NCBI GenBank assembly: GCA_005524015.1
Contig: SULG01000034.1
Location: 1-32,465, forward strand
Source: Candidatus Jettenia ecosi
GTDB lineage: Bacteria; Planctomycetota; Brocadiia; Brocadiales; Brocadiaceae
Reading direction: 5' to 3'
Length of the DNA: 32,465 bases
Below the pieces are notes generated by a model that saw only the letters and a program-made list of their open reading frames with translations, did not search any database and was not told the DNA's origin. Of this stretch, positions 459-12,301 are shown one piece after another. How positions within the stretch are numbered: the stretch's first letter is position 1; each line of letters starts with the position of its first letter. The position numbers and the translations under genes were made by a program.

Positions 459-476
459 GTTTATTTTATGGTAAAT
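459..476 (+). other. Proposed attL core
   Basis: Eighteen-base direct repeat identical to 9770-9787. On the element-internal side it continues to give GTTTATTT-N6-AAATAAAC (459-480), an inverted repeat of the kind tyrosine recombinases bind as core arms. The right copy lacks the second arm because its outer flank is chromosomal. The reconstructed attP would therefore carry the full inverted repeat. Confidence 0.65.
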
Positions 477-495
477 AAACAAGCGTTTACTACGT

Positions 496-590
496 GTTTT
501 GATATGTATTGATATTGTCTTATCTATCTAGTATCCACAAGGCTTTCAGGGGAATTTAATTCTTGTTCTCATTGACTGGTTTTGATATGT
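496..590 (+). promoter_or_regulatory. Candidate integrase/excisionase arm sites
   Basis: The 12-mer GTTTTGATATGT occurs at 496-507 and 579-590. These are direct repeats 83 bp apart (about eight helical turns), just inside the proposed attL. A similar word occurs inverted at 446-456, outside the core. The placement fits arm-type binding sites, but the words are AT-rich and related text also occurs at 1-110, so this is tentative. Confidence 0.35.
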
Positions 591-656
591 TTTTATGACA
601 AGGTACGAACTAGATTCGAACGTAAATTGAATGTAAAACTTAACAAATGGAGATAT

Positions 657-1124
657 ATGCCTATGAAAAAGTTAACAAAGAAAGCTAAGGCGTCTGACAT
701 ACTAGTTAAAGATAAACAACCATCACAGGAGGCACGCCTTCCAAAAATACTCACTAAGGCATCTGCAGCTTATGTGAAGGCTAGAAAAAATGGCAAATCT
801 ATCAAAGATGCTTATAAGATCGCAGGTTTTAAAGGTAATCTGAACGGCAATGCTCCATACGAGGTTGAAAGACGTTTCAGAAACCATATTCAGAGTGAGT
901 CTTCCACATCTGAAGACATTCTACTGTCTGTGAAAGAAATTGCATGGGGTGTTTTAAATTCACGACAGAATACAAAACTGACTAAATTAGAGGAATTTTG
1001 CCTGAAAATAACCTGTGATATGGCAAAAAAAAAGGGAATGAGAAACGTTAACAATTATGTTTGTGATCTTTCAAGCATAGAAGCAAACGAGTTCGACCTT
1101 CCAGACAAGGAACAAGCTGGATAA
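657..1124 (+). CDS. Small basic protein with HTH-like N-terminus, unknown function
   Basis: First gene of the element. The frame is open from 582, but a GGAG at 649-652 favours starting at ATG 657 or the in-frame ATG 663, giving about 155 residues. The N-terminal 15 residues are lysine-rich. The next segment (AYVKARKNGKSIKDAYKIAG) reads like the helix-turn-helix of terminase small subunits and other homeodomain-like phage proteins, but no terminase large subunit is present. The C-terminal half has no recognised motif. It could be a regulator or origin-binding protein. The family is not recognised. Confidence 0.6.
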   Translation: MPMKKLTKKAKASDILVKDKQPSQEARLPKILTKASAAYVKARKNGKSIKDAYKIAGFKGNLNGNAPYEVERRFRNHIQSESSTSEDILLSVKEIAWGVLNSRQNTKLTKLEEFCLKITCDMAKKKGMRNVNNYVCDLSSIEANEFDLPDKEQAG

Positions 1125-2773: not shown

Positions 2774-2889
2774 ATAACCTTATGGACAAAGAAAAAATCT
2801 TAAATCGTTTAGATATTCCAAACTACTACAAATCCCTTATTCCTTCTTTGAAGGTTAATGGCAAGCCAGAGGCGGAGGTGCAAGGATGA
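2770..2889 (+). pseudogene. 39-aa ORF resembling a truncated CHC2 primase zinc-finger start
   Basis: Not in any long frame, but neatly placed: its ATG overlaps the upstream stop (ATGA at 2770-2773) and its stop overlaps the primase ATG (ATGA at 2886-2889). Its end, YYKSLIPSLKVNGKPEAE, matches the lead-in of CHC2-type primase zinc-binding domains, where LKVNGKPEA is normally followed at once by a CPFH segment. Here it stops after EVQG and all zinc ligands are absent. It is either a relic of a lost zinc finger or a retained leader peptide coupling translation. The resemblance is from memory of the family. Confidence 0.5.
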
Positions 2890-5372
2890 GTGAGGCGGCT
2901 ATTTCGACAGACACTGCAGTCAGTTTCTATAAAAACGCACGCAACAAGACTGGTGTGACCAGCAATCTTCATGTAATAATGGACGGTATCAGGAACGGAA
3001 ATTGGGAAAAGGAGGTCGAGGCAGTCAGGAATGAAAAAGATAAAACAAGACGAAGTCGGTTAAAACAAGGAGTCCCTGCATTCACTCCAAGCGGTGTCTT
3101 CGCCGAGCGTAAGGTAAGCGGGCTGCAATGCCATAGCGGGGTGCTAGCGATTGACTTTGACCTCGAAGACAATCCTCAGCTAGGAGTAGAGCTTGCATCG
3201 GTGCGAGCGACCTTAGAGAAAGATAAATTTTCCGAGTATGTTTCGCTATCTGTTTCTGGTCAGGGCCTCTTTGTTATCATCAAGATAGACGAGGCAAAAC
3301 ATACAGAAAACTTTTTGTATCTTGAACAATATTACAAAGAAACCTACGGATTGGTAATTGATAAATCTTGCAAGGATGTTTCACGGCTGCGTTTTGTATC
3401 GTATGATCCTAACTTATACCACAACAAGGATGCAGAAAAATACTGCGAATCGGCACAGGAGTATACGAAAATGTGCCAACCAGCACAAAAAGATGCGAAA
3501 GCGTACCCGAGCAGCCAGGACGACAACGCCCGCATCATGGCTGATATTGTCAAGAGCGGGAAAATGATCGGCGACGATAGCTATGGCGATTGGGTCACTA
3601 TAGGTTTTGCATTAGCTGCTACCTTTGGCGAGGCTGGCAGGGGTTATTTTCACGCACTCAGTCAACGAGGCGTAAAATACGATGCAGGCGAATGCGATAA
3701 GAAGTATAGCAATTGTATTGAAACAAATCAAGGGAAAGTCAAATTCGGTACTATCGTGCATATGGCAAAGCATGCAGGAGTTGTACTTTCTCAGCCTAAA
3801 CAGGGGGATTGGCCTGAGGGATTAGGAAAGACCAGGAAAAGAAGCAAGGAAATAGTTGGGCTTGGTAGTTTTTGGGTAGTTCTTGAAGAGGGGGATATTG
3901 ACCTGTGCACGGTAACCCTATTCCAGGAATTTCTTCCTGCTAACGGGTTTCGGCGTTACAAAGTCAATCCGAATGATAGCGCATATGTGTATGTGCGGAT
4001 TTCTGGCAGCTTGGTTGAGCCTGTTTTGCCAGTTCAGATAAAGGATTTTGTTTTAGATTACTTAAAAAAGGAAAAGCAAAATGCAGTGAAAGAGGAAAAG
4101 AAAACTCTGAAAAAAGTTTTTCGTAAAGTACAGGCTAGCAGTGGCTTTCTCTTTTCAGAATGGCAAATAAACTCATTGCCCTATGTCACGATTGATTTTT
4201 TAAGGGATACTTTTGACACCTGTTACTTATTTTTCAGTAATGGGGTTGTAGAAATAAAGAAAGACTCGACCTGCCTGCATCCTTACACCAAGCTGCAAGA
4301 GCTGGAAAAGTTTGTTTGGAAGAAAAGTGTAAACCCGCATGTTTTTTGCGAGGCCGACACGCCTAGCATGTTCGCCGAGTTTGTCGCAAATACTTCTTCA
4401 TACGTTTTAACTGAAGACGAACGGGCGGCGGAATCCGCATTAGGAGAAGAGCACCTTCCTGTCGGCGAGCGATGGATGCGCATGTCTGACCTTGAATCAA
4501 AGATAACGGCATTCGGGTATCTGATGCATGGATATAAAGACGTAGCTAGCTGTCCTGTGGTTATTGGATGCGATGCCCAAATCAGTGAAAAGGGCGTGGC
4601 AGAAGGCGGCACTGGCAAGAGCCTATTCCTGGTCCAGGCTTTGTCACAGGCAAAGAATTTATTGCAGATAGATGGACAAACGACTGATCTATCAGACCGC
4701 TTTTGTTTTCAACAAGTGACGCCAGACACGCATATTATAGCGTTCGATGATGCAAATTGGAAGTTTGACTTCAGGACATTGTTCCAGAGAGTGACAGGTA
4801 ACTTTTCAGTTGAGAGAAAAAACGCTATGAAGTTGGATATTCCCTTTGAAGTGTCGCCAAAGATGTGCATAACTAGTAATCATACCTTCAAGGGAGAGGG
4901 GCATAGCTTCACCCGCAGGCAGCATATCATTGAGTTTTCCGATTACTACAAATTACGAACACCGAAAGAGGTGCATAACAAAGCGTTGTTCACCGCATGG
5001 AATTATGAAGAGCGAAATGCCTTTTTTTCTTTTGCGATTCACTGCATCCAGGAGTATTTTGAAAAGGGGTTGGTCGCACCGAAAATCAGGAATTACGAAA
5101 CAAGGAAACTTTTGGATTCTACGCCAGATGGCTTCTCTGAATGGGCAGACTCGAGCATTACTCTGAATAAAGAATTTTTACGCAACGATTTAATCGAGGA
5201 TTACAAGAGCGTAACAGGGGATATTGAAATAAAGCCGAAGGTGTTTACCGAAAGCTTGCTTCGATGGGTGAGGCATAGGGGTTTCACTTATAATCCCAGC
5301 ACGAACGGAAAAAGAGACATAAGGAACGGCAAAACACATGTTTTTATTGCCAAAATCGCTAAAAACAACTAG
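2886..5372 (+). CDS. Primase-helicase: BT4734-like N-terminus, PriCT-2, SF3-type helicase
   Basis: 828 residues; replication protein of the element. The N-terminal ~185 residues fit the BT4734/VirE-N family, probably an archaeo-eukaryotic-type primase fold: acidic pair D90/D92 in AIDFDLED, then SVSGQGLFVIIKI and DVSRLRFVSYDP. Residues about 215-300 (ARIMADIVKSG to VHMAKHAGV) match the PriCT-2 primase C-terminal domain. Residues about 550-700 are a D5/SF3-like helicase with Walker A GGTGKS (574-579), Walker B IIAFDD (617-622), a motif-C-like KMCITSNHT and an arginine-finger-like RRQHIIEF. The start ATG overlaps the stop of the preceding small ORF, so translation is coupled. The origin-like repeats begin 26 bp after its stop. 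Confidence 0.85.
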   Translation: MSEAAISTDTAVSFYKNARNKTGVTSNLHVIMDGIRNGNWEKEVEAVRNEKDKTRRSRLKQGVPAFTPSGVFAERKVSGLQCHSGVLAIDFDLEDNPQLGVELASVRATLEKDKFSEYVSLSVSGQGLFVIIKIDEAKHTENFLYLEQYYKETYGLVIDKSCKDVSRLRFVSYDPNLYHNKDAEKYCESAQEYTKMCQPAQKDAKAYPSSQDDNARIMADIVKSGKMIGDDSYGDWVTIGFALAATFGEAGRGYFHALSQRGVKYDAGECDKKYSNCIETNQGKVKFGTIVHMAKHAGVVLSQPKQGDWPEGLGKTRKRSKEIVGLGSFWVVLEEGDIDLCTVTLFQEFLPANGFRRYKVNPNDSAYVYVRISGSLVEPVLPVQIKDFVLDYLKKEKQNAVKEEKKTLKKVFRKVQASSGFLFSEWQINSLPYVTIDFLRDTFDTCYLFFSNGVVEIKKDSTCLHPYTKLQELEKFVWKKSVNPHVFCEADTPSMFAEFVANTSSYVLTEDERAAESALGEEHLPVGERWMRMSDLESKITAFGYLMHGYKDVASCPVVIGCDAQISEKGVAEGGTGKSLFLVQALSQAKNLLQIDGQTTDLSDRFCFQQVTPDTHIIAFDDANWKFDFRTLFQRVTGNFSVERKNAMKLDIPFEVSPKMCITSNHTFKGEGHSFTRRQHIIEFSDYYKLRTPKEVHNKALFTAWNYEERNAFFSFAIHCIQEYFEKGLVAPKIRNYETRKLLDSTPDGFSEWADSSITLNKEFLRNDLIEDYKSVTGDIEIKPKVFTESLLRWVRHRGFTYNPSTNGKRDIRNGKTHVFIAKIAKNN

Positions 5373-5397
5373 GTATACTATATATTTGTACAGGCAC

Positions 5398-5706
5398 AGT
5401 ACGCAGGAGTACGCAGGAGTACGCAGAACAGTACGCAGAATCGCCCGCAACCCCCTGCAAATGCTCAACAGTACGCACAGTACGCACGATTTCCTACCTA
5501 GCGGGGGGGGGTATAAAAAAGGGGTATAAAAAAGGGGGTATATAAAAAAAAGGGTATAAAAAAAAGGGGGGTGGGGTGTAAATCGCAAAATCGTGCGTAC
5601 TGTGCGTACTGCGTTTTTGTAAACCATTGCTATTAACAGACTTAACCTAGTACACAGAGAAAAAATCGTGCGTACTCCTGCGTACTCCTGCGTACTCCTG
5701 CGTACT
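5398..5706 (+). other. Candidate replication origin: 12 octamer iterons in mirrored arrays around a G/A tract
   Basis: The octamer AGTACGCA occurs six times in forward orientation (starts 5398, 5408, 5418, 5430, 5470, 5479) and six times inverted (starts 5594, 5603, 5669, 5679, 5689, 5699). Outer arrays step by 10 bp, inner pairs by 9 bp. Positions 5470-5492 and 5588-5610 form a perfect 23-bp inverted repeat. Between them (5503-5576) runs of 9, 4, 5, 3, 6 and 4 G alternate with TATAAAAAA-type tracts, giving easy melting and strong strand asymmetry. The site directly follows the primase-helicase gene. This is the layout of an iteron origin with an unwinding element, although origin function is inferred. 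Confidence 0.7.
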
Positions 5707-5758
5707 GTGAGACAAACTTAACATATTTCTGAAATTCTAACTTTTGAAAGGAGATTGC

Positions 5759-6169
5759 ATGTCGGATATTTCTAAATTTTTCGTTAATCCAGAATTAAAA
5801 AAAGCATTTCAGCAATATGCACAGCAAATTACACAGGGGGCACACAAAAAAGATGCAGGCAAGGATGCAGGCAACGATGCAGGCAACGATGCAGGCAAGG
5901 ATGCAGGCAACGATGCAGGCAAGATTGAGCCGCAAGCCATACCATACGAGCTAGCCGAACGAATGGCTATCGAGGGGGAAAACTGCGAGCCAGACCAGGT
6001 GCAGCCTTATATTACCAGTTTTGGTGTTCTGGTGATCCCTTTCAACAGTGATCCTAAATATCATTATTGGAAGCCAGGCGGCCAATCAGTATGCGCCACA
6101 CTCAAAGAACTAGGGCGGTGCGATTTGATCGAAAAGTATACACATCCAGAATACATTAGGGGTAATTAA
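5759..6169 (+). CDS. Unknown protein with DAGK/DAGN tetrapeptide repeat
   Basis: 136 residues from ATG 5759, chosen because AAAGGAG ends five bases before it. The N-terminal helix (FFVNPELKKAFQQYAQQITQG) is followed by a low-complexity linker of six DAGx units (about residues 32-55) encoded by exact 12-bp repeats, then a compact C-terminal domain with YELAERMAIEGENCEPDQVQ. It is the first gene after the origin-like region, in the same direction as the nuclease gene that follows 5 bp later. The family is not recognised; a role in replication or recombination is suggested only by position. Confidence 0.65.
   Translation: MSDISKFFVNPELKKAFQQYAQQITQGAHKKDAGKDAGNDAGNDAGKDAGNDAGKIEPQAIPYELAERMAIEGENCEPDQVQPYITSFGVLVIPFNSDPKYHYWKPGGQSVCATLKELGRCDLIEKYTHPEYIRGN
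5852..5923 (+). repeat. Six 12-bp tandem repeats inside a CDS
   Basis: Six units of GATGCAGGCAAG/C in a row, in frame, encoding alternating DAGK and DAGN. Third-position identity between units points to recent slippage rather than old selection on protein sequence, so copy number probably varies between relatives. Confidence 0.9.
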
Positions 6170-6872: not shown

Positions 6873-7917
6873 CCTAAAATCTCCTATACATCGCATAGGC
6901 GGTAAGTTCTTCCTGAAAGATTGGCTTGTCCAGCACATACCCAAGCATACCCTCTATTGCGAGGTGTTTGGCGGTGCTGGACATGTCCTGTTCGGTAAGA
7001 CGCCTAGTCGGGTAGAGGTCTTGAATGACATTGACAACAACCTAGTGAACTTTTTTCAGGTGATCAAAGACCAGGAGAACCGCCGAAAGCTTATCGAGAC
7101 GCTTCGATACATGCCATATTCCCGGCAGGTTTGGCAGGAGATGCGGGATAAGATTCGAGGTGGAGATGAGAGAGTGAAAAGCCAAAAGCGTCAGTCGATA
7201 GAATTAAGGCTAAAGGAATGTTTTGGATTGTCAGACAGGCAGATTGCTAAAGAACTAGGAGTAAGTGATAAAACAGTAGGGTCAGTAAGAAAGGAATTAG
7301 AAAGCATTGCGGAAATTCCGCAATGCTCCAGACAGACTTCTGACGGACGTATATATCCATCTCAACGTCAGAATCAGAAAACCAATATCACACGTGCAGC
7401 CGAGTGGTTTTACCTTAACCGCTCATGCTTTGGCGGTGATATGCAATCAGGCGGCTTTGCATTACCTTCTACCACCGGCCGTAATACTGCACAGAGTTAT
7501 GCTAATAGCATTGACACCTTCCACGATATAGCCAGGAGAATGCAGGGTGTGACTGTCGAATGCCTGCCGTATGCCGAATGCATCCAGAGGTATGATAGCA
7601 AAGATACGTTATTCTTCTGTGACCCACCATATTTGAATGCAGAAGGGTATTATGGCAAAAAAAACTTTGCGTACGATGACCACAGAGACCTTGCAAACAT
7701 GCTCAACATGGTAAAGGGTCAAGTCATGGTCACGCATTACCAGAATGCCTTTTATGATGATCTATACAAAAATTGGCAGAATTACACCTTTGAGAGCTTC
7801 AAAGGAAGCCACAAAGCGGATGCAGGAGAAGAAAAGCCAGTGACAACAGAGGTTTTATATTGTAACTTTTCACCAGGAGTTAAAACAAGGAGCTTATTCA
7901 GTGAGTTATTACAATGA
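6862..7917 (+). CDS. D12-class N6-adenine DNA methyltransferase with internal HTH insertion
   Basis: 351 residues. The N-terminal part has the D12/Dam AdoMet pocket: SPIHRIGGKFFL, then EVFGGAGHVLF (FGGAG 36-40) and VLNDIDNNLVN. The catalytic DPPY is at 254-257. Between them, residues about 99-172 carry an extra domain: RLKECFGLSDRQIAKELGVS with DKTVGSVRKELES is a clear helix-turn-helix, followed by SDGRIYPSQRQ, a tail known from ParB-like and phage HTH proteins. No partner restriction endonuclease is visible, so it is an orphan modification enzyme, perhaps protecting the element or marking its origin. Confidence 0.85.
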   Translation: MAVNLKSPIHRIGGKFFLKDWLVQHIPKHTLYCEVFGGAGHVLFGKTPSRVEVLNDIDNNLVNFFQVIKDQENRRKLIETLRYMPYSRQVWQEMRDKIRGGDERVKSQKRQSIELRLKECFGLSDRQIAKELGVSDKTVGSVRKELESIAEIPQCSRQTSDGRIYPSQRQNQKTNITRAAEWFYLNRSCFGGDMQSGGFALPSTTGRNTAQSYANSIDTFHDIARRMQGVTVECLPYAECIQRYDSKDTLFFCDPPYLNAEGYYGKKNFAYDDHRDLANMLNMVKGQVMVTHYQNAFYDDLYKNWQNYTFESFKGSHKADAGEEKPVTTEVLYCNFSPGVKTRSLFSELLQ

Positions 7918-8280: not shown

Positions 8281-8440
8281 ATTGGTAGTGGTATTATACA
8301 CCAGATACAAACAGATAACAAAATATAAAAAGATATAGGAATTAAATACTTGAAATTACATTCATTTATTGATAAGTACGTACGTAGTAAAATCAAGGGC
8401 GTGGACAGACGCATAATAAATATGCCTGAGCAATTGGGCA

Positions 8441-8493
8441 ACAAAAGGCAACGGTTGGAAGTGCTGTCCCACTTTCAATTTGTTGCCTTTTGT
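8441..8493 (+). promoter_or_regulatory. Bipartite inverted repeat upstream of the integrase start
   Basis: Perfect 12-bp arms ACAAAAGGCAAC (8441-8452) and its complement (8482-8493), with a second small hairpin (AAGTG/CACTT) in the loop. It falls just before ATG 8521, inside what would be coding sequence if the integrase began at TTG 8350. This argues for the later start and for a regulatory or recombinase-binding role. Confidence 0.5.
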
Positions 8494-8520
8494 GTTTCTG
8501 GAAAGGACGGTGTGCAATCT

Positions 8521-9729
8521 ATGGCGGTTAGATATCGAAAGTATTTCCAGCAATGTAAGGGGAAAAGAAATAATGGCGACCGATACGGCAAGTTGATTGC
8601 AAAGGGTATTAGCTGTGAAGGTAAACGTAGTAAGAACTGTCCAGAAGGTATACCAAAGGATAAGCCTTGCGGTGGATGGGCAATCGAGTTCAGAGACCAG
8701 CAAGGCAAATGGCAGAGTATTATCAAGCCAGGCTTCACTAAAACGACAGCTAAGGAAGCATACCTTGAGATAATAAGGAATATCCAGCGAGGTCTATTTG
8801 ATCTACCCATCCTGCAAAAGATGCCTAAGGTTACCGTAGAAGCATATGCCAGGAAATATCTTGAACACATCAAGGGCAGCATACCAGAGAACACATTTGT
8901 GAGCAGGCAAACGGCAGCGAATGCTATCATAAGGCGTCTAGGTGACTTTGAGGTTTCCAGGCTTAATATAGTTCTAATACAAAGATTCTGCACAGATGTA
9001 TTGCAGTTAGACCAGGCGAAAGCATCTACCGTGAATCAATATTGTTCTATCCTCAGGCTTGTTCTGGACATGGCTGTGCAGGAAAGAGTCATTAGCACGA
9101 ATCCTATGCAAGGGTTTAAACGGCTAAAGGTGGACGAGACAACTAAGCGTATATTAACGAATGAGGAAATAAGGGCAATCCTTGATGAATCTATATTACC
9201 TATGGGAAGTGACCGCATGGCTATTCTTATTGGTATGCTTACGGGCATCCGACTAATGGATGTCATAGGGCTAGACTGGTCAAACATAGATTTTAATAAC
9301 TTCAGGATCACTTTAATACCACAAAAAACAGGCAGGAGTATTACCTTGCCATTGTCTGGTTACCTGCTAGGTGAATTAAAGAGGTATAAAGAATTAATGC
9401 CTGACAAGGAATACCGCTTATTCTACGATGGCGAACTCAATCTTGTTGCAGGAAGAAAGTTTAGCAGGCGATTTGTAAACCTATTCAAGAGATTAGGCAT
9501 GAATGACATTTCATTCCACAACCTACGTCATACAAATGCCAGCAAGTTTACTGAGGTTATCCAGGACGTTTCTGTTGCATCAAAGCTATTAGGCCACAGC
9601 CACACAGACATTACTATGGGTTATATTCATAAAGACTTTAACTCACAGAAAGAAGCTATTGAGAAGTTCACAAACCATATGCTTTCCCTGCAAGGGTACG
9701 AACCAGAAGCGAATCAAAAAATAGCATAG
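8521..9729 (+). CDS. Tyrosine recombinase / site-specific integrase
   Basis: 402 residues from ATG 8521; the frame opens from TTG 8350, but the extra 57 residues look unlike an integrase and overlap an inverted repeat. The N-terminal part (MAVRYRKYFQQ to IIRNIQRGLF) is an arm-binding-like region, then a core-binding SAM-like domain (VEAYARKYLEHI to ISTNPM), then the catalytic domain with all expected residues: R244 (TGIRLMD), K269, H333 and R336 (HNLRH), H359 (LLGHSHTD) and Y368 (GYIHKDF). It ends 40 bp from the proposed attR and should integrate and, with the excisionase-like protein, excise the element. Confidence 0.92.
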   Translation: MAVRYRKYFQQCKGKRNNGDRYGKLIAKGISCEGKRSKNCPEGIPKDKPCGGWAIEFRDQQGKWQSIIKPGFTKTTAKEAYLEIIRNIQRGLFDLPILQKMPKVTVEAYARKYLEHIKGSIPENTFVSRQTAANAIIRRLGDFEVSRLNIVLIQRFCTDVLQLDQAKASTVNQYCSILRLVLDMAVQERVISTNPMQGFKRLKVDETTKRILTNEEIRAILDESILPMGSDRMAILIGMLTGIRLMDVIGLDWSNIDFNNFRITLIPQKTGRSITLPLSGYLLGELKRYKELMPDKEYRLFYDGELNLVAGRKFSRRFVNLFKRLGMNDISFHNLRHTNASKFTEVIQDVSVASKLLGHSHTDITMGYIHKDFNSQKEAIEKFTNHMLSLQGYEPEANQKIA

Positions 9730-9769: not shown

Positions 9770-9787
9770 GTTTATTTTATGGTAAAT
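9770..9787 (+). other. Proposed attR core, inside the 3' end of the cupredoxin gene
   Basis: Same 18 bases as attL. Read on the minus strand it encodes the last residues (F-T-I-K) and stop TAA of the cupredoxin gene, so integration leaves that gene intact. Confidence 0.65.
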
Positions 9788-10434
9788 TCCACCTTAGCAG
9801 GGGGACCTGATATAACCTTGATTTGTTGATCTTCCGACTTGCCTCGTTCACTCCATAATTTTACCGTATACTCTCCTGGCGGTACATCGGTAATAGAAAA
9901 ACTTCCATCGTTGCTTACCCTTGCAAAATATGGATTTTGTAAAACCAGGATGTAGGCAAGCATGTCGACATGCACATTGCAACGGATAGAGGCAATACCT
10001 GATTTATGAAAGGTAAAAGATCTTACTTCACCCTTAAGCCACGTTCCTAAATTCATATTGTCCGCTACAACATCCGGAGAATAGACATTATGCTGAACGC
10101 TATCGCTGTTAAGAAAATCAACGGTAGTTCCCTTTACTATGGGGAGTACATGAGGAATGAAGGCCATATTTTTTTGATCCATAACAGCATGTTCTGTTGG
10201 CGGCTCAAAAGTGTTTGGCACATTTTCAATATAAACAATGGCATCTTTTAAGTATTTAGGTTTTTTCGCAGTGATAGCGCCATTGATTACCCCTGAACCG
10301 CTTTCACCGGCGGATATATGATGCAGGTGAATTCCCATTACAAAAAATACAGTAAAAACTAAAATAATCGGGACCTTCATATAAATCCACATATTTTTAG
10401 TGCACATAGATAATCTCCTTATACCATGCTTCAA
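9772..10434 (-). CDS. Exported type-1 copper (plastocyanin/methylamine-utilisation-like) protein
   Basis: 220 residues. One membrane helix or uncleaved signal (VPIILVFTVFFVMGIHL) precedes a cupredoxin domain, about residues 45-165. Copper ligands are visible: H in SVQHNVYSPD and C, H and M in CNVHVDM. A C-terminal segment (GSFSITDVPPGEYTVKLW) is a carboxypeptidase-regulatory-like beta domain. Proteins of this build occur near periplasmic electron-transfer systems. The start is uncertain: in-frame ATGs follow at residues 10, 15 and 19, the last giving a more standard signal peptide. Its 3' end is the integration target of the neighbouring element. Confidence 0.8.
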   Translation of the reverse strand: MKHGIRRLSMCTKNMWIYMKVPIILVFTVFFVMGIHLHHISAGESGSGVINGAITAKKPKYLKDAIVYIENVPNTFEPPTEHAVMDQKNMAFIPHVLPIVKGTTVDFLNSDSVQHNVYSPDVVADNMNLGTWLKGEVRSFTFHKSGIASIRCNVHVDMLAYILVLQNPYFARVSNDGSFSITDVPPGEYTVKLWSERGKSEDQQIKVISGPPAKVEFTIK

Positions 10435-10445
10435 ATGGAATCGAT

Positions 10446-10497
10446 GTAGGGCGAGGCTTTAGCCTTGCAAAGGTGCAAACCTAAAGGTTTGCTCTAC
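10446..10497 (-). repeat. Short hairpin repeat
   Basis: Imperfect inverted repeat with GTAGGGCGAGGCTTTAGCC at the left and the related GGTTTGCTCTAC at the right. It belongs to a widely seen class of small non-coding hairpin repeats beginning GTAGGG/GTAGAG. It sits just upstream of the cupredoxin start. Confidence 0.6.
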
Positions 10498-10543
10498 GGA
10501 AATGAAATTTCCCAACAGTAAACCAGGATATACCATAACCCGT

Positions 10544-10758
10544 AACGCTGTAGTTTTTTGAAAAATAACCCCATAGGGGTGAAATGTTTATAGAAACATG
10601 TGATATACAAAACCTTAGCTCCATCGGAGCGGCATGTGACCTTAACACAGAAAAACATACCGCTCCGATGGAGCTTGATTGTGGCAGAATGATTTGCCTA
10701 TAAACATTTCGCTCCCAACGGAGCTGTTCACGGTGTTTTTTCAAAAAACTGCCATGTT
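10544..10758. mobile_element. MITE-like nested hairpin inserted in an older repeat
   Basis: Terminal inverted repeats 10544-10565 and 10737-10758 agree at 18 of 22 positions, with 14 identical inner bases (AGTTTTTTGAAAAA). Nested inside are two more inverted pairs: GAAATGTTTATAG at about 10580 with its complement near 10700, and AGCTCCATCGGAGCGGCATG at 10617 with its near-complement at 10655. It splits a repeat also found whole at 12327-12411: 10518-10537 matches the left part and 10763 onward the right part. No ORF. The rest of 10435-10858 is unassigned. Confidence 0.6.
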
Positions 10759-10858
10759 CCACAATTCTCATAAAGTTATTTATAGTTAGGGGCAGAGGCT
10801 CTCAATACAAAAAAAAGATACTGTCACAATGAGTCACAAAAGAGATAAAGACATTTAC

Positions 10859-12028
10859 CTATCCTCTATGGAATATATCCAAAAAGAATAATAAGAAATA
10901 CCCAATCAATAAAATAAACCAACTAAAAGTCATGATAAATTCCAGGGTTGTAGAAAAGGACATAGAAAAATTTTCGGAGAGCATGCTGTAAATATCCTCC
11001 AGGGCATCGAGCGTTTTGTTAATATTCGTTTTCCACGCCTCCAGGTGAAGTTTTTTCGCCACGAGATCAAACAACCGTGCTGAATACCAATCCCCGATAA
11101 GTTTGATATTGCGTTCCGTAGCCTCGGATTCCAGGATTGATTTTGTGCGTATTTCTATAATCTCACGCAGCGAGTGCCGGATCTCGCGTGATTTAAGCCA
11201 TGGTATTTTCCTTGCGGTTGTCTTTTGTAAAAGGAGCGCCGCTTTCTCTAGCCGCTCTTCCGATTCGTGTTCCAATACCCGTAATCTCAGTAACTGAAGA
11301 TGGGCAATTTCGAGAAGTTCGATATTACTGGCAAAATCACCACGGGGGTCAAAGATAAAAGTCCCATCCCAGTCTACAATGGTTATGTCATCCTGGGTAT
11401 ATTTAATATTGAATTTAAGTGTTGTATTAATCTCCTCTTCGTCTAAAGGTATTCGTTCTGTTTTGAGAAGCCCTGCGATACTGCTCTTATGTTCTGAGAT
11501 AATGTTCTCAGGATTTCCTTCATAATCAGATACACAATATACGCTGTGTTCCTCATCAAAGTAAGGATCGCATTGATATTCCCCCAAAAAGGCCCTGCAT
11601 TGAATAAGGAGCGCTTGCTTGAGATCAAAGATATGCCTGTCTAATATATCCTCCAAAGCGACAGATGCCTCCACAATGACAATTTTTGGCGGGCAGTATT
11701 TTACGACGAGATCAACTATCCTGTTTTCAATAGATATTTTTTCGCTTTTAACGATCATCTGCTTTGGCATTACATCGGGATACGAAGGAGAGCTCTTGGC
11801 CGTTTTAATATCAACAATCTCGGCAGTGCCGAGATCCATCTTCGTAATTCCCAGGAGAAAGAAGACCAAAGTGCCTTTGACCATACGATTAATCTCCACA
11901 GATAAATTTCCGGTTAGCGATGGAAGGCGATTGTGCGTTCGTATCTCTTGATCCTCTACCGGCGCCTCGGAGAACAGGGTATTATTTTGACAGGGATTAT
12001 ATAGATAACTTAAGCAGAAATGCTCCAT
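10859..12028 (-). CDS. Unknown protein with C-terminal membrane anchor
   Basis: 389 residues with no catalytic motif I recognise. The N-terminal half is mixed alpha/beta with an acidic middle (ITIVDWDGTFIFDPRGDF). The second half is helical with long charged helices (LLEIAHLQLLRLRVLEHESE and following). A transmembrane segment (FSWFILLIGYFLLFFLDIF) ends the protein. The layout recalls RMD1/DUF155 or CorA-like anchored coiled proteins, but I cannot confirm either. The first nine codons lie in a dispersed repeat (12004-12025, shared with 28321-28342), so the true start may be internal, for instance the methionine in RMVKGTLVFF. Confidence 0.6.
   Translation of the reverse strand: MEHFCLSYLYNPCQNNTLFSEAPVEDQEIRTHNRLPSLTGNLSVEINRMVKGTLVFFLLGITKMDLGTAEIVDIKTAKSSPSYPDVMPKQMIVKSEKISIENRIVDLVVKYCPPKIVIVEASVALEDILDRHIFDLKQALLIQCRAFLGEYQCDPYFDEEHSVYCVSDYEGNPENIISEHKSSIAGLLKTERIPLDEEEINTTLKFNIKYTQDDITIVDWDGTFIFDPRGDFASNIELLEIAHLQLLRLRVLEHESEERLEKAALLLQKTTARKIPWLKSREIRHSLREIIEIRTKSILESEATERNIKLIGDWYSARLFDLVAKKLHLEAWKTNINKTLDALEDIYSMLSENFSMSFSTTLEFIMTFSWFILLIGYFLLFFLDIFHRG
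12004..12025 (-). repeat. 22-bp dispersed repeat shared with 28321-28342
   Basis: Twenty-one of 22 bases match the copy just upstream of tadA. Here it encodes residues 2-9 of the 389-aa protein, there it is non-coding. Confidence 0.75.
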
Positions 12029-12250
12029 TTACCCTATATGCATCAAGCTAAGAATAGTGTTCCATAAAAAAGGGGGTATCCCTCTGGAAAAAGAACAACA
12101 TGTGTCCATGTTTCCCTCTAATCCCCCCAACCCCCCTTTAAAAAAGGGGGAAAAGAAAGAAGTTTCTCTTTAAGAAGGAGAGAACAAGGGATTTCCCCCT
12201 TTTTTAAAGGGGGATTAAGGGGGATTACGGGTTAGCTTGATGTATATGCC
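12029..12250 (+). repeat. Dispersed mosaic repeat, copy B
   Basis: 12029-12125 is a diverged inverted copy of 190-275. The C-run/T-A/G-run hairpins at 12124-12220 recur at both window ends. 12195-12250 in reverse matches 32289-32340, including the GCATCAAGCTAA motif. It contains no gene. It lies between the 389-aa gene and the MAT gene, where 12029-12421 is otherwise repeats only. Confidence 0.75.
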
Positions 12251-12273
12251 ATTTACCCATCCCTCAATCCCCT

Positions 12274-12301
12274 GTAGAGGCGCAAAATCTTGCGTCTCTA
12301 C
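12274..12301. repeat. Small hairpin repeat, same family as 21451-21474
   Basis: GTAGAGGCGCAA and TTGCGTCTCTAC form 12-bp arms with one mismatch. It interrupts a longer repeat (the CCCTCAATCCCCT to GAGTTAGGGG frame) that is filled differently at 28560-28620. Confidence 0.65.

Follow-up and report, generated by a model that had tools for sequence, protein, structure and literature searches.

Is the dense, mirror-ordered repeat array at positions 5398-5706 of this contig the replication origin of the element that carries it, and which protein would read it? The window (the whole 32,465-nucleotide stretch of Candidatus Jettenia ecosi DNA that was analysed) contains 12 exact copies of AGTACGCA in this region. 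Six forward copies start at 5398, 5408, 5418, 5430, 5470 and 5479, followed by six inverted copies starting at 5594, 5603, 5669, 5679, 5689 and 5699, as the sequence-only reading had reported. Across 500 dinucleotide shuffles of this stretch, no 8-mer reached more than 4 copies. Measured by the 7-bp core, the spacings are 10, 10, 12, 40, 9, 116, 9, 66, 10, 10 and 10 bp, giving a 4-2||2-4 layout (Table 1). The 9-bp spacing claimed for the inner pairs is thus correct, whereas the 10-bp spacing claimed for the outer sets holds on the right and not on the left. The inner inverted repeat is present with a length of 24 bp (5469-5492 and 5588-5611) instead of the 23 bp given before, and a perfect outer inverted repeat extends over 32 bp (5395-5426 and 5678-5709). 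The outer-to-inner gaps measure 40 on the left vs. 66 on the right, the latter housing a degenerate 13th copy. The outer and inner dyads are centred at 5552 and 5540, an offset of 12 bp, and the offset is 11 bp in a related element (L013, see below). Thus, the dyads do not share a centre, and their displacement seems to be under constraint in these two sequences. The earlier argument that helical-turn spacing aligns a protein along one face of the DNA is weak, as the outer spacings of L013 are 20, 11, 12 and 12, 12, 19, and it is not supported, with spacings ranging from 8 to 20 among relatives.

Table 1. Coordinates of the array and of the element features in the window.
Feature	Position	Strand	Remarks
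attL core GTTTATTTTATGGTAAAT, element left end	459..476	+	direct repeat; homologous repeats flank the L082 element
Conserved element gene, possibly terminase-small-subunit-like (weak)	582..1124	+	homologues at the same end of L013, L016 and L017
Primase-helicase, proposed initiator	2886..5372	+	BT4734-like AEP, PriCT-2, DUF5906/SF3-like helicase, C-terminal winged helix
Initiator C-terminal domain, predicted winged helix, proposed iteron-binding	5076..5369	+	AlphaFold2 pLDDT 78.5
Left outer iteron quartet	5398..5437	+	spacing 10, 10, 12
Left inner iteron pair	5470..5486	+	9 bp apart
Central A/G-rich, C-free tract	5503..5583	+	proposed melting region
Right inner iteron pair	5594..5610	-	9 bp apart
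Degenerate iteron AGTACACA	5649..5656	+	orientation opposite to right arm
Right outer iteron quartet	5669..5706	-	spacing 10
Tyrosine integrase	8350..9729	+	PF00589; 88% identical to integrase of same-site element in G001
attR core	9770..9787	+	direct repeat; overlaps 3' end of host gene 9772-10434 (-)

The array starts 25 bp downstream of the stop codon (5372) of the primase-helicase gene, in agreement with the placement directly after this gene noted before. The encoded protein of 828 aa matches Pfam PF08800 and PF08707, with DUF5906 below its cut-off, and PHROG 28855 (E=2e-80), and the helicase alignment shows a conserved Walker-type GGTGKS motif. AlphaFold2 predictions of three sequences yielded a usable model solely for the C-terminal 98 residues, the full-length helicase model being poor (pLDDT 35). 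The C-terminal model has the order of elements of a winged helix, and the nearest of the compared structures are RFX-type and other winged-helix domains, the similarity to the RFX DNA-binding domain being modest (Z 7.4, rmsd 1.9 over 63 residues). The best two viral structure matches of the domain are phage primases. Solved structures searched by sequence yielded nothing relevant, and the SaPI and P4 initiator structures were absent from the fold-search matches, an absence that excludes nothing. The P4 alpha protein binds via a winged helix (PMC4234260). In PMC7581432, iteron binding by SaPI Rep and SCCmec Cch2 is placed in the C-terminal domain, a likeness between the Rep of SaPIs such as SaPIbov1 and the predicted initiator.

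The array sits between two co-directional genes, and its 3' flank is conserved between the window and L013 as far as the next start codon. Both features would suit an operator array controlling transcription of the replication gene or of the genes after it, the true origin then being elsewhere, and iterons often act as autoregulatory sites too. However, the array lies after and not before the initiator gene, exactly where the P4, PICI and SaPI origins lie, and 12 sites in 309 bp, in a mirrored layout conserved across unrelated elements, exceed what normal operators have. An operator without origin function is thus very improbable.

Comparisons within the genus provided evidence on what is conserved in the array. 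Genome G001 carries two related elements, L013 and L082. The L013 primase-helicase is 67% identical to that of the window overall and 71% in the helicase half, and its array has the same layout. AGTACGC is kept in 24 of 24 copies (12 in each element), and nearly all the spacers are replaced (e.g. AGG by TTTTC and AC by CC). Several spacers match across the dyad within each element, yet differ between the elements, which suggests concerted evolution of the two arms; the simplest explanation would be conversion between the arms. The stretch CCCGCAAYCCCYTG.AAATGCT between the left outer and inner iterons (5444-5465 and the matching L013 stretch) is conserved, unlike the array spacers, and is possibly a site for another factor.

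The matching spacers are also what a pairing constraint would give if the initiator read the large inverted repeat as a structure and not by octamer sequence, as at a pRN1-type stem-loop (cruciform) origin. The initiators of pRN1 and BIP-1 share the domain order found here (AEP, helical/PriCT-2, SF3, winged helix), their origin lies just 3' of the gene, and a downstream stem-loop origin has been proposed for such proteins (PMC4234260). Compared with shuffles, the single strands of the array also have a far stronger folding potential (z -11.0 and -13.8), which follows from the mirror order of the iterons. However, descriptions of the pRN1/BIP-1 origin give a large stem-loop that lacks iterons, whereas the iterons here are invariant in two elements, and a pure stem would allow covariation. 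The left cluster of L082 is largely unmatched, extrusion from duplex DNA is unlikely with inner loops of ~95 nt, and conversion between the arms could also produce the spacer matches. Recognition as a stem-loop is improbable on this evidence.

L013 and L082 are 98.4% identical over 2,205 bp, including primase residues 1-303, and divergent beyond. This shared segment stops within the primase gene, at residue 303, and indicates that the two elements recombined recently inside one genome. Past this residue, L082 encodes a P4-family D5 helicase and carries the octamer AGTACGTT in a different layout, and it has the insertion site of the window element together with the related integrase. Since L013 and L082 have the primase half in common, and the window and L082 the integrase and the site, the comparison indicates that the octamer is linked to the helicase half rather than to the primase half, the integrase or the location. 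However, AGTACG is common to AGTACGC and AGTACGTT though the helicases are unlike, which counts against a helicase-linked octamer. The same comparison bears on whether the array is a partition, incompatibility or packaging (pac) site for another element protein, as the terminase-like gene at the left end of the element could suggest. The L013 homologue of this gene matches phrog_641 (TerS) weakly, at E=0.005 only, and weak TerS-like matches occur in related elements. However, it is the helicase half, rather than the integrase or other shared genes, that the iteron changes with, and the helicase family is the only thing common to the array-bearing relatives, leaving such a site barely credible.

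The array lies within a 9.3-kb integrated element bounded by 18-bp att direct repeats. The site after the same host gene is unoccupied in the same-genus genome G002 and is occupied by L082 in G001. Besides the integrase, the element encodes an RHH protein, an ERCC4 nuclease and a Dam-type methylase. The element has in common with PICIs an integrase with att sites, and rep/pri followed by the putative ori. No alpA or stl/rpr regulator was found in the element by Pfam or PHROGs, the only candidate gene being CopG-like RHH, and neither capsid genes nor a DNA-ejection-protein homologue were detected in the window element. The related integrative element L016 (genome G020; 3429-5287 and 9856-12295) has a DNA-ejection-protein homologue (E=2.6e-10), with two tandem genes of this kind (phrog_4287), a TerS-like HTH gene and no capsid genes seen; by gene content, it is possibly a phage satellite of anammox bacteria. 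Other repeats in the window are a 12-bp repeat, GATGCAGGCAAS, present in frame ~6 times in the early part of ORF 5744-6169 (5849-5932) and missing from the L013 homologue, an intergenic 65-bp tandem duplication of 97% identity (2378-2507) and a perfect 18-bp tandem (1610-1645).

The layout was also found beside more distant helicases. In the Salinibacter ruber plasmids pSR14 and pSR31, a helicase ~30% identical to that of the window is fused to a different primase half, which matches TOPRIM-type phage and plasmid primases. Directly 3' of the gene come a quartet and a pair, then a ~102-bp centre, and beyond it an inverted pair followed by a right outer set; each outer-to-inner gap holds a single reversed copy. 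The iterons are TGGTCCA (variant TGTCCCA) in pSR14 and TGTCACA in pSR31. The two proteins show 44 differences, with 30 in residues 1-311, 4 in residues 312-750 and 10 in the last 23 residues. No published origin analysis of these plasmids was found in the literature searched. A profile search with the helicase gave nine genomic and many viral loci, and a layout score was computed beside the helicase stop codon in 130 distinct loci. Nine of them score 53-64, whereas no shuffle exceeds 51 and none of the other 121 loci exceeds 48: the window, L013, pSR14, pSR31, L130 (Ignavibacteria), L129 (a Riflebacteria prophage), the viral contigs L297 and L296, and L082. The score was built after the first members had been seen, so the window, L013, pSR14, pSR31, L130 and L297 are not independent of it, and what it adds is the separation from shuffles and from the 121 relatives. 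L082 scores through a left quartet with the right spacing, and its repeats point the other way. The left-arm spacings are strikingly alike in L130 (19, 11, 11, 31, 8), L297 (20, 11, 11, 31, 9) and L013 (20, 11, 12, 41, 9), and a copy at the place of the degenerate iteron of the window is present in pSR14, pSR31 and L130. The right arms of these last three have five clear sites, not six, and the layouts of L129, L296 and L297 are incomplete.

The layout is absent directly downstream of the helicase gene in the 121 lower-scoring relatives, mostly phage contigs, indicating that the helicase family does not need it. The array had been expected neither to occur in unrelated contexts nor to be missing from intact relatives. 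AGTACGC pairs in 59 relatives are confined to the two homologous arrays and one other tandem beside cas genes; the array is present in L013, and none was found near the helicase gene of L019 (31% helicase identity). The tandem beside the cas genes, in genome G039, is unrelated, being a one-directional 9-bp repeat. It consists of at least 6 copies of CTCTGCGTA after a cas1-like ORF (L081, ~9969-10020) and contains AGTACGCA by chance. Elsewhere in the phylum, arrays of mixed orientation lie close to further BT4734 primase genes (e.g. TGGGACG in G009 and AGTGTGC in G094), whereas some such genes have no array nearby. The G009 array (L084, 8974-9390) is mirrored around a TATA-rich centre and lies upstream, not downstream, of a BT4734/D5 primase gene. 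In L016 (GGAAACAT, 7394-7802) and L017 (TATGGCA, 7036-7196), iteron-like repeats also occur within the primase coding sequence, at its 3' end, and two viral contigs, L264 and L265, have a mixed-orientation ATGTTGA array upstream of the helicase (2607-2933). Single-protein scans of genome and viral collections for close relatives gave no matches.

The 81-nt central tract is the longest C-free run in the 32-kb window. The A+T content of 5496-5590 is 59%, with A runs, and that of the L013 centre is 64%; the centres of L129 and L130 are A/T-rich as well. G runs are found in the centres of the window, L013, pSR14 and pSR31 only. A suggested check for G-quadruplexes detected none with loops of up to 7 in the window tract and none in L013 even with loops of up to 15, and a G-quadruplex, matched nowhere at the shorter loop length and not conserved, was discarded.

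Taken together, 5398-5706 is very probably the replication origin of the element, with iterons bound by the C-terminal winged helix of the primase-helicase. The locus combines the features of an iteron origin, namely repeats beside the initiator gene, an A/T-rich region and an initiator with a helicase and a predicted C-terminal DNA-binding domain. Sequence comparison establishes the array, its conserved layout and the link of the octamer to the helicase half, and supports the origin reading well. This reading is favoured because the array follows the initiator gene as in PICI/SaPI and at the P4 crr, because 4-2||2-4 and AGTACGC persist in L013 despite the changed spacers, and because the iteron follows the helicase half between L013 and L082. 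It is further favoured by the Salinibacter plasmids, which share the layout with other iterons and have 10 of their 44 protein differences in the last 23 residues, by the fit of L129, L130, L296 and L297, by the winged-helix model, and by the att repeats and the empty site. After excision of the element, the primase-helicase would bind the iterons via its C-terminal domain and assemble on each arm, giving two helicase assemblies. The A-rich centre would then melt, two helicases would load facing opposite ways, and both strands would be primed for the host polymerase, with theta-type, bidirectional replication. One may speculate that the six iterons per arm (4+2) serve the six protomers of one helicase ring. 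The count is exact in the window and L013 and fits the left arms of most others; however, the five-site right arms and the incomplete layouts weaken the idea of one site per protomer. More broadly, six winged-helix sites per arm for each SF3-type ring, with 6+6 templating a head-to-head double hexamer, could be a conserved design common to unrelated plasmids, prophages and integrative elements of several phyla, its specificity rewritten by changes in the C-terminal wing. We put this forward tentatively, as a conjecture with somewhat less than even prospects, and the 30 differences in the first 311 residues of the Salinibacter proteins count against specificity residing in the tail only.

The sequence-only reading took the mirrored layout as one apparently not described before. 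This does not hold for the general kind, since the published PICI/SaPI plan has, after rep, an AT-rich region with a set of iterons on either side, 'always' present according to PMC6092414. PICI/SaPI origins resemble the present array in short iterons, two sets, an AT-rich middle and the position immediately 3' of rep. The tested origin of the PICI EcCICFT073 has mostly mirrored octamers, GGTAGA(C/T)A, 9-11 bp apart, with single reversed copies between the outer and inner sets. However, its layout is 2-3||2-2, and the window element differs from PICI/SaPI in its helicase subfamily, its BT4734-type AEP and the regulator and capsid genes that went undetected. Phage P4 shares octamer iterons (TGTTCACC) in both orientations, with pairs 9 bp apart, directly 3' of the primase-helicase gene, but it needs both an ori and a crr at separate sites, its primase is of the TOPRIM type and the 4-2||2-4 layout is missing. 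The same mirrored layout is seen in pSR14 and pSR31, which differ in primase half and octamers. The literature searched contained no description of the conserved 4-2||2-4 layout, of its spread over unrelated element types or of specificity swaps. The conserved layout and the natural specificity swaps are thus what is new here.

Ring helicases that load at origins without a loader pose an open question as to how they do so, and it is usually unclear how many sites serve each ring and in what geometry. By sequence, plasmids, prophages and viral DNA from several bacterial groups show the layout again beside related replication proteins, with changes in the site sequence. The near-identical Salinibacter proteins with different octamers, and L013 and L082 in one genome with a shared primase half but not helicase half, are natural swap experiments, through which the recognition code and the idea of one site per protomer can be tested directly. 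The layout may also serve as a rule for finding origins in mobile elements that are as yet uncharacterised, as here in anammox bacteria.
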